Below, one piece after another: positions 43,953 through 47,683 of a stretch of 64,000 nt of DNA; position 1 is the stretch's first letter; every line of letters starts with the position of its first letter. The position numbers and the translations under genes were made by a program. Where the stretch lies: positions 67,761 to 131,760 of the forward strand of contig WHTS01000002.1 in the NCBI GenBank assembly GCA_009377585.1. Reading direction: 5' to 3'. Source of the DNA: Betaproteobacteria bacterium (GTDB lineage Bacteria > Pseudomonadota > Gammaproteobacteria > Burkholderiales > WYBJ01). Under the pieces are notes generated by a model. It had not been told where the DNA came from and did no database searches. It saw only the letters and a list, made by a program, of their open reading frames with translations.

Positions 43953-44054
43953 TTTCCTAACCGCATGCGGGCTCGTGACGATTCGCGCCACCCGCCGCAG
44001 CCGGAGCGCGTGCGCATCGAGTGTACAATAGGCCGCGCCCGCAACCATCGCCTT

Positions 44055-45726: not shown

Positions 45727-46677
45727 TCAGACGCGATAGAGGGCGCGTCGGTCGCGGCGAAAACCGATGGCCTGCGGCTCCCCCTGATCGAACGCACGCC
45801 CCAGGCTCAGTTCTCCCGAGCCGTCGAGCAGCAGCTCGCTGCGAAACACGTGCGCGGTCTCGCCGTCGCTGCGGCGCACGAACGTGCCGTTGGTGCTGTG
45901 GTCGCTGAGGTAGACCTGGGTGCGGCGCAGGATGAGGGTGGCATGGCGGCGCGAAGCGAAAGAGTCGCCGACGGCAATATCGCAGTCCGCGTCCCGGCCC
46001 AGAACGATCGATGGCCGGCGCGGATCGATGCGCACTTGCGCGTCGCCGAACGAGACCAGCAGGCTGCCGCTGTCGGGCGGCACCAGGTTGTGACGGCGCA
46101 GATTCACGTCGGTGAGCACAGCGCTATCCTGCTGCCAGATCACCTGGTAGAGCGCCGACTCGACGCTGGAACCCTTGATGACGGCGAAGAACAGCGGGCG
46201 AGTGCGTTCCCGCACGGCTTCGGACAGGCCGCCGATGGTCGCCTCCGTGGTCAGGATCTGTCCTCGGGAAGCGACCGCGCACAGGTAGCTGGCGGCGTTC
46301 ACCGTGTCGCCGAATAGATCGCTGCCTTCCACCAGCACCGGCCCATGATGCAGCCCGACATGCATCGCGAGGGCATGCCCGGCGGGGCGCGCGGCGTCGA
46401 TCTGCGCCTGCATTGCGGCGGCGGCGAGAACGGCCCGATCCGGTTCCGGAAATACGCACATCACCTCGTCGCCCAGCGTCTTGACCAGGCGACCGCCGTA
46501 GCGCGGCAGGACGTCGATCACCGCATCGAGGCCGGCCGCGACGATGGCGCGTGCGGCTTCGTCGCCGAGCGAACAATAGAGCCGGGTGCTGCCGCAGATA
46601 TCGGCGAACAGCACCGTCATGGCCGTACTGTGTCGCGTAAGCGGTGATTTCTTGGTGATCGGATGACGAGCCGTCAT
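45727..46677 (-). CDS. class III nucleotidyl cyclase domain fused to FHA domain
   Basis: A 316-residue soluble protein. The N-terminal cyclase homology domain (about 18-190) has the metal-binding Asp26 (LFADICGST) and Asp70, and Lys66 (VKTLGD) for base recognition. It also has Asp124 and Asn127 in LFGDTVNAASYL, but Tyr131 stands where the transition-state Arg (usually N-x3-R) is expected. Activity may therefore be weak or lost. The C-terminal FHA domain (about 222-300) is intact: VLGRDADCD, SRRH and STNGTF, so it should bind phosphothreonine proteins. ATG 46677 was chosen because it precedes the conserved domain; longer frames run through repeats and a small RNA. Upstream lie two tandem 21-bp repeats. 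Confidence 0.85.
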   Translation of the reverse strand: MTARHPITKKSPLTRHSTAMTVLFADICGSTRLYCSLGDEAARAIVAAGLDAVIDVLPRYGGRLVKTLGDEVMCVFPEPDRAVLAAAAMQAQIDAARPAGHALAMHVGLHHGPVLVEGSDLFGDTVNAASYLCAVASRGQILTTEATIGGLSEAVRERTRPLFFAVIKGSSVESALYQVIWQQDSAVLTDVNLRRHNLVPPDSGSLLVSFGDAQVRIDPRRPSIVLGRDADCDIAVGDSFASRRHATLILRRTQVYLSDHSTNGTFVRRSDGETAHVFRSELLLDGSGELSLGRAFDQGEPQAIGFRRDRRALYRV

Positions 46678-46682
46678 GATGC

Positions 46683-46724
46683 GATTCGCACAGCACTGAA
46701 CCCGATTCGCACAGCACTGAACCC
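46683..46724. repeat. two perfect tandem 21-bp repeats before the cyclase-FHA gene
   Basis: Two identical 21-bp units abut at 46683-46703 and 46704-46724, each starting GATTCGCACAG and ending CACTGAACCC. They lie between the cyclase start codon (46677) and the small-RNA terminator. A TTC-N10-GAA half-site pattern is visible in each. They could be binding sites for a regulator of the cyclase gene. Confidence 0.85.
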
Positions 46725-46736
46725 AGTAGCGAGTGC

Positions 46737-46814
46737 AAAAAAAAACGGGCAGCCCCGAGGGCTGCCCGAAAGTCCACACCGAGTAGAGCGCCAGGAGGAG
46801 ACCCCTACTCGGTG
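46737..46814 (-). ncRNA. candidate small RNA with an anti-Shine-Dalgarno loop
   Basis: Minus-strand transcript of about 78 nt. Its 5' part folds into a 10-bp stem, CACCGAGUAG (46805-46814) with CUACUCGGUG (46777-46786), around an 18-nt loop. The loop contains CUCCUCC (46794-46800), complementary to GGAGGAG Shine-Dalgarno sequences. The 3' part is a rho-independent terminator: a 9-bp stem (46746-46754 with 46760-46768) and nine U residues (46737-46745), a good Hfq landing site. A sigma-28-like promoter ends 5 nt before it. The 5'-leader of the cyclase gene is the alternative view. I recognise no known RNA family. No protein-coding gene explains the terminator. Confidence 0.65.
46746..46768 (-). 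terminator. rho-independent terminator of the small RNA
   Basis: CGGGCAGCC / GGCTGCCCG stem with a 5-nt loop, followed on the minus strand by nine T residues (46737-46745). This is a textbook intrinsic terminator for leftward transcription, placed 60 nt before the cyclase-FHA start codon. Confidence 0.85.
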
Positions 46815-46818
46815 CATG

Positions 46819-46845
46819 ATTTCGGCAGCCGGCGGAAAAACTTGA
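46819..46845 (-). promoter_or_regulatory. sigma-28 (FliA)-like promoter for the small RNA
   Basis: Minus strand TCAAGTTT (46838-46845), 11-nt spacer, GCCGAAAT (46819-46826). The known FliA consensus is TAAAGTTT-N11-GCCGATAA; Betaproteobacteria often show TCAAG in the -35. This gives about 13 of 16 matches with the right spacing. The predicted start is near 46812-46814, exactly where the small-RNA hairpin begins. The same stretch can also form a hairpin (GCAGCCGG with CCGGCTGC), which may be coincidental. Confidence 0.55.
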
Positions 46846-47029: not shown

Positions 47030-47683
47030 ATGTTCCAATTCGGCAAGAAGGCTCGCATGCTAGAGCCCGGCGAAGCGCAGTCGGGACGCGCACAGGAAAT
47101 GCCGGTTCCCGCACGTCACTACGTCAACGGCAATCCGCTCAAGCCGCCATTCCCCGAGGCCATGGCACTGGCGCAATTGGGGCTCGGCTGCTTCTGGGGC
47201 GCCGAGCGCAAGTTCTGGCAGACGCCGGGCGTATTCTCCACGGCGGTCGGCTACGGTGGCGGCGCCACGCCCAATCCCACCTATGAGGAAGTCTGCAGCG
47301 GCCTCACGGGCCACACGGAACTGGTGCTGGTGGTGTTCGATCCCGCGCGCCTGCCGTACGAGGCGCTCCTCAAGGAGTTCTGGGAAGCGCACGACCCGAC
47401 CCAGGGCATGCGCCAGGGCAACGACGTCGGCACGCAGTACCGCTCGGCCATTTATACGTACTCCGACACGCAGCGCGAAATCGCCGAGCGTACGCGTGCC
47501 GACTATCAGGAAGCGCTGAAGCGGGCGGGCTACGGCCCGATCACGACCGAAATCGCGCCAGCCAAGGCTTTCTACTACGCCGAGGAATATCACCAGCAGT
47601 ATCTGGCGAAGAATCCCGGCGGCTATTGCGGCCTGGGCGGAACCGGCGTGAGCTGCGCCGTCGGCACCGCAGTAAAAGCCTGA
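47030..47683 (+). CDS. msrA: peptide-methionine (S)-S-oxide reductase MsrA
   Basis: MsrA repairs oxidised methionine (S-sulfoxide) in proteins. The active site GCFWGAE holds catalytic Cys54; [17 protein letters not shown] and [25 protein letters not shown] complete the family pattern, and the C-terminal cysteines likely act as resolving residues. 217 residues, with a 45-residue N-terminal extension before the catalytic core, as in E. coli MsrA. It has its own promoter and no operon partners. Confidence 0.94.

Follow-up and report, generated by a model that had tools for sequence, protein, structure and literature searches.

The described RNAs that stand closest to the one considered here are those of the Rfam family RF02278 ("Betaproteobacteria toxic sRNA"), among them ncS27 and bdhR1 of Burkholderia, and S17 of Bordetella pertussis. 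RF02278 RNAs are reported to be toxic to E. coli when cloned (PMC4603805, PMC5688073), and S17 is reported not to be similarly toxic (PMC11722255). S17 is described as transcribed by sigma-A, as Hfq-dependent and as a repressor that acts through complementarity to ribosome-binding sites (preprint PMC11722255; PMC5688073); 70 of its 91 candidate genes (92 according to the abstract) have ribosome-binding-site matches and 32 genes or operons are transporter-related (PMC11722255). Another set of anti-Shine-Dalgarno sRNAs, AbcR1/2 and NfeR1, is known from the alphaproteobacteria. The AbcR1/2 loop reads CUCCUCCC, and these RNAs inhibit the translation of mRNAs for transporter components, those of NfeR1 encoding two periplasmic binding proteins (PMC8844928).

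Here, we examine a stretch of 64,000 nucleotides (the window), the minus strand of which very probably holds, to judge from its letters and those of its relatives, a conserved small-RNA gene. The predicted RNA has in common with RF02278 and S17 the bacterial order, the size, a 5'-proximal GUCUCCUCC and a U-rich terminator; the opinion of the earlier note on this DNA, which knew of no described family like it, thus has to be corrected. There are nonetheless clear differences. In RF02278 RNAs, a short hairpin of the CCACC/GGUGG type is flanked by two CUCCUCC-like motifs, whereas the window RNA has one CUCCUCC and a longer, 5'-extended stem different from that hairpin; and S17 has a reported sigma-A promoter, in contrast to the FliA-like promoter of the window RNA. 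What is new is the sigma-28-like promoter on an anti-Shine-Dalgarno RNA, together with a sister family at the flhC/motA junction; RNAs of the RF02278/S17 type were already known. Among open-licence PMC papers, we found no FliA-driven anti-Shine-Dalgarno sRNA of the Burkholderiales.

Anatomy of the Predicted RNA

The features of the locus are collected in table 1. The leftward unit with a 3' intrinsic terminator and nine U residues that the earlier note had proposed is confirmed. Its 5' hairpin, described there as a 10-bp stem exposing CUCCUCC, stands as a hairpin with a CU-rich loop; the details have to be corrected, since the first C of CUCCUCC is paired in the minimum-energy fold, the loop is UCCUCCU and the stem has more than 10 pairs. 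The fold of the 79-nt RNA has an energy of -47.9 kcal/mol (z = -6.88), which none of 200 shuffled sequences equalled. Between positions 44000 and 50000, a simple terminator scan returned 3 sites versus 3.6 in shuffles, and a sigma-70 site scan returned 0 versus 0.8, too low an expectation to be informative.

Table 1. Predicted RNA unit, promoter elements and flanking genes (window coordinates)
Feature	Position	Strand	Remarks
Predicted small RNA, ~79 nt	46737..46815	-	5' end placed from promoter position
Conserved segment GUCUCCUCCUGG	46791..46802	-	Anti-Shine-Dalgarno, likely seed; common to flhC/motA family, partly to RF02278
Unpaired loop UCCUCCU	46793..46799	-	Minimum-energy fold
Hairpin 5' arm	46800..46815	-	Outer part variable among relatives
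Hairpin 3' arm	46776..46792	-	Invariant in 4/4 genus genomes
Intrinsic terminator stem-loop CGGGCAGCCC-TCG-GGGCTGCCCG	46746..46768	-	10 pairs, 9 GC
Nine-T terminator tail	46737..46745	-	Possible Hfq site
Sigma-28 (FliA) -35-like element TCAAGTTT	46838..46845	-	6/8 columns invariant, 4 genus genomes
Sigma-28 (FliA) -10-like element GCCGAAAT	46819..46826	-	6/8 columns invariant, 4 genus genomes
Adenylate/guanylate cyclase catalytic domain + FHA	45727..46677	-	PF00211, PF00498; downstream neighbor, outside the RNA unit
msrA, peptide methionine sulfoxide reductase	47030..47683	+	PF01625; upstream, divergent neighbor

As a separate observation, the region that separates the terminator from the cyclase gene (46683-46724) holds GGGTTCAGTGCTGTGCGAATC twice on the minus strand, as tandem 21-bp copies; this region is gapped in the other three genus genomes.

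Conservation in the Genus

Promoter, core and terminator, with fixed spacing, are carried by all four genus genomes examined. Conservation in relatives, as envisaged in the earlier note, is thus found, and the flanks drift: the fraction of invariant ungapped columns is 61/65 from core to terminator, 6/8 in each promoter element, 4/11 in the spacer and 6/15 in the leader and 5' arm, versus 13/59 in the upstream and 8/56 in the downstream flank. This pattern makes visible selection on the promoter, the loop segment, the 3' arm and the terminator. The compensatory base changes for which the earlier note had proposed a test in the stem did not appear: among the 26 consensus pairs of the alignment, which comprises only four sequences, none shows a two-sided change. 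Four outer pairs are each broken in one genome, and the inner pairs are intact in all four, some of them through a one-sided change. As an invariant 3' arm is unable to covary, this comparison decides neither for nor against the stem.

A covariance model of the window RNA (R2), trained on the four genus sequences, gives 98.7-108.5 bits to these same sequences. Over 399 genomes of the order, high scores were confined to these four genomes; 73 further genomes had weak matches of at most 33.7 bits.

A FliA-Like Promoter

A sigma-28-shaped promoter at the right distance from the RNA had also been claimed, and this is borne out by scores of 13, 13, 14 and 13 of 16 in the four genus genomes, each with a spacer of 11 bases and a constant 15 bases from promoter to GGTCT core. 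The window promoter (46845-46819) owes its 13 to comparison with the FliA consensus, TAAAGTTT-N11-GCCGATAA; elsewhere in this genome, over 0.86 Mb read on both strands (1.72 Mb of strand), a single site reached 13 and 17 sites reached 12. FliA is encoded in full length by the genome (282 bits), as are FlhC, flagellin (fliC) and MotA, the last recognized by motif.

The strict pattern AAGTTT-N11-GCCGA has 10 matches in the four genus genomes versus 3 for its reversed control. Three of the 10 are the promoter of this sRNA, the G001 copy having escaped the pattern through a one-base difference, and no match turned up ahead of fliC or motA. The genus promoters of these two genes read T[CAT]AAG[TC]T[TCG]-N11/12-G[CT]CGTAA[AT], mostly with a spacer of 12, and the -10 of the sRNA is hence not the genus form but a neighboring one. 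The few strict-pattern matches and this differing form leave FliA control likely, not certain; on the sequence data, we regard control of the window RNA by sigma-28 (FliA) as probable.

A Sister Family between flhC and motA

An exact scan of genome_contigs, a collection of 84,980 species genomes, with AAGTTT-N11-GCCGA-N14-44-GTCTCCTCC returned 15 records. A terminator follows GTCTCCTCC in nine of them (eight by the automatic test, and L083, with an odd stem loop, by eye); the six without one come from Luminiphilus, Paenibacillus, Clostridia, Bryobacter, Saccharibacteria and Odinarchaeota. Eight of the nine terminator-bearing records are labeled Burkholderiales, Burkholderiaceae, Albitalea, Piscinibacter or Rhizobacter, the three named genera being Sphaerotilaceae of the Burkholderiales, and one is labeled Pseudomonadota; the genus relatives G002 and G003 are among the nine. 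Six of the nine (L072, L075, L076, L078, L085 and L086) have the RNA in the orientation of flhC, at the end of that gene or immediately past it, and in the five of these where the stretch extends far enough motA is the next gene. Pfam confirmed FlhC, FlhD, MotA and flagellin in L075, L076 and L086.

From six such flhC/motA-type RNAs, with the promoter left out, we built a second covariance model (R1). At E <= 0.001 it has matches in 84 of the 299 genomes taken from a large related taxonomic family. We examined the top 59 of the 96 matches listed (46.7-88.5 bits), together with 11 from the weaker remainder of 37. Of the top 59, 51 have flhC no more than 400 nt upstream and 39 have motA no more than 340 nt downstream, one or both being present in 57. 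On an alignment fitted to the R1 model, two-sided changes occur in 12 of 14 pairs and 96.3% of cells are paired, which was matched by none of 500 shuffles. The flhC/motA RNA is an uncatalogued sister family with covariation support. A FliA promoter score of at least 12, with N11 only, was found at 25 of the best 59 loci and lower scores at 34, a count slightly biased by at least two loci (G263 and G489) that contributed training sequences found through their promoter; by comparison, none of 30 canonical RF02278 loci and none of 1400 shuffles reached 12 (maximum 11 in both). The 11 weaker loci, RF02278-like sequences among them, have promoter scores of at most 11.

The type is patchy in its distribution. 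In G000, the window's genome, the 420 nt or so that follow the flhC domain contain no CTCCTC. A search of 160 genomes of the order detected flhC in 58, and behind the best 49 of its 76 listed matches no combination of promoter, CTCCTC and terminator was seen; three of the genomes behind these 49 regions come from the same taxonomic family as the sister RNAs. Of 399 genomes of the order, the strict promoter with CTCCTCC occurs in four, G263 and three of the genus, versus 1 for the reversed control. When 250 genomes of the large related family were scanned with a looser version (CTCCTCC only), it gave 4 matches versus 7 for its reversed control, two of the 4 being sister RNAs.

The window RNA was considered as a member of this family and rejected, its R1 score of 22.7 bits being no better than those of six canonical RF02278 loci (17.2-33.8; genus relatives 15.0-24.9). 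It shares a FliA-like promoter, GTCTCCTCCTGGC and a terminator with sister RNAs, but sits between msrA and the cyclase; the longest segment common to both is GUCUCCUCCUGGC. Common descent and parallel recruitment by FliA of a CUCCUCC RNA are both possible.

A side observation concerns L079, in an uncultured Burkholderiales MAG: a 16/16 FliA promoter precedes an RNA, GTCTCCTCCT, that is barely more than a terminator hairpin and adjoins an ORF judged by eye to be NikR-like.

Relation to RF02278

At the Rfam gathering score, the window contains a tRNA only, and none of 14 loci (11 of the sister RNA and three of the genus: L001, L003 and L004) reaches that score. Below it, the window RNA matches RF02278 with 30.4 bits (E = 2.3e-4; gathering score 50). 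RNAs of this kind are widespread: among the 200 relatives sampled, 139 have a match at E <= 0.01 (74 above the cut-off). Their function is described in the literature as largely unknown. In G000, G001 and G003, a CATAAT element precedes one separate RF02278-like RNA that scores about 48 bits; of the two anti-Shine-Dalgarno RNAs of the genus, one thus seems to be under sigma-70 and the other under sigma-28. The sequence of the former, at G000:C78 (L049), G001:C82 (L050) and G003:C27 (L051), is CGTTTCCTCCAAAACCTCCTCCTTTGGTGGATT.

A TGCNNNGCAN[CA]A box was noticed within 110 nt upstream of 20 of 30 RF02278 loci (e.g., L011, L018, L029 and L030), with a shuffled mean of 0.09 and a maximum of 2 for a pattern picked after reading the same sequences. 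The box resembles PhaR-type operators; if it is one, the RF02278 RNAs would be tied to polyhydroxyalkanoate metabolism.

Candidate Targets

Across the four genus genomes, the pattern AGGAGGAGA-N3-11-ATG occurs at 68 distinct sites (71 rows, 3 of them overlapping) versus 4 for the reversed control. We examined 63 of these, five from G002 being omitted, and the removal of ORFs shorter than 200 aa left 49, of which 29 encode TctC. For the control site AAGGAGGT, loci were taken for 30 of 63 listed sites, and TctC accounts for 2 of the 13 long ORFs that remained after the same cut (Fisher p 0.011 versus AGGAGGAGA). For the gene background, genes were called by a crude method over 0.93 Mb of G000, which included the window. 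TctC/Bug receptor genes make up 45 of the 493 genes called there. GAGGAGG precedes 11/45 TctC versus 6/448 other genes, plain AGGAG 23/45 versus 60/448 and AGGAGGAGA itself 2/45 versus 1/448. The enrichment of AGGAG and GAGGAGG points to stronger Shine-Dalgarno sites in TctC genes generally, and pairing with the TctC sites would also be possible for the RF02278-like paralogue (G000:C78). The mRNAs of TctC solute-binding proteins are hence the best lead to targets, a lead and not a proof, as the evidence is correlative.

Flagellar targets were sought by eye on the flagellar contigs (about 62-80 kb) of three genus genomes, and none of the 8-10-base matches there was both convincing and shared. 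fliC, with the site TTAGGAGTC or TTAGGGGTA in two relatives, was a weak case and was set aside.

Alternative Explanations

The arrangement of the genes invites the reading that the promoter serves the cyclase-FHA gene and that the terminator is regulated, so that the unit would be a leader or attenuator. The cyclase is on the same strand as the RNA, its ATG is about 60 nt from the terminator, and it follows the RNA in three of the four genomes (G000, G001 and G003). In G002, however, where the contig begins about 1 kb upstream of the RNA, promoter, core and terminator are intact, no cyclase was found within 8 kb around the RNA and the next gene is an FAD oxidase on the opposite strand. The persistence of RNA and promoter without an adjacent cyclase is a strong argument against a cyclase leader, and the poor conservation behind the terminator also speaks against it. 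This explanation, the alternative named in the earlier note, is strongly weakened and in our judgment highly improbable; the separate small RNA with an anti-Shine-Dalgarno loop, probably FliA-dependent, that the same note preferred is supported.

It would be less surprising, although we still think it unlikely, if this were an ordinary RF02278-type sRNA of general stress or stationary phase, driven by sigma-70/A, the FliA-like promoter being accidental. The match to RF02278, the shared GUCUCCUCC and GGUGUGGA, the wide occurrence of such matches and the genus fliC/motA promoters, somewhat unlike that of the sRNA, are in its favor. Yet the match is far under the gathering score, three of the four genus genomes have their separate CATAAT-preceded copy, and the FliA-like promoter is preserved in all four. 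The RNA might also be FliA-dependent and act mainly through protein binding, Hfq titration or its 3' arm, GGCGCUCUACUCGGUGU, and not through CUCCUCC; an invariant 3' arm facing a drifting outer 5' partner suggests that this arm has a function of its own. We give this little credence, as it is GUCUCCUCCUGGC that is the longest segment common with the flhC/motA family and GUCUCCUCC that is common with RF02278.

Proposed Mechanism

The reading that we prefer, with a probability of roughly two in three, is that of a trans-acting, FliA-dependent sRNA that masks AGGAGGAGA-like ribosome-binding sites while flagella are built. The unit with its FliA-like promoter, its conservation and its family resemblance are computed results; transcription, FliA dependence, the use of Hfq, repression and targets are inferred. 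FliA (sigma-28) activity would lead to transcription of the RNA, which would end at its own terminator, ahead of the cyclase gene. Probably assisted by Hfq, as the U tail and the example of S17 suggest, GUCUCCUCCUGG would then pair in trans with G+A-rich, AGGAGGAGA-like ribosome-binding sites. The translation of a set of mRNAs would thereby be lowered during flagellum building, TctC/Bug-type solute-binding proteins most likely included. That a related RNA lies inside the flagellar gene cluster of many related bacteria suggests that motility is coupled to the turning-down of other proteins.

Comparison with Known Systems

A FliA-wired version of a widespread kind of RNA, together with an uncatalogued family in the flagellar cluster, would constitute a direct link from motility to translation control. 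AbcR1/2 and NfeR1, to which the window RNA is likened by description, belong to another bacterial class, and the available part of their account makes no mention of sigma-28 (PMC8844928); the resemblance nonetheless makes repression of transporter mRNAs by the window RNA an attractive idea. A wider proposal, tentative and in our view somewhat more doubtful than not, is that anti-Shine-Dalgarno sRNAs of the Burkholderiales came under FliA in at least two settings, the genus locus and flhC/motA, and form a motility-versus-uptake switch on transporter receptor mRNAs that is positionally analogous to MotR of E. coli. MotR is sigma-28-dependent, a control that the window RNA probably shares. It lies between flhC and motA in E. 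coli K-12 (PMC10578931), the genomic position in which the sister family is found. The window copy is unlike MotR in its location between msrA and the cyclase, its own terminator and its CUCCUCC core. The flhC/motA junction thus has, after MotR, a second case of a probable sigma-28 sRNA, and one of quite different anatomy.
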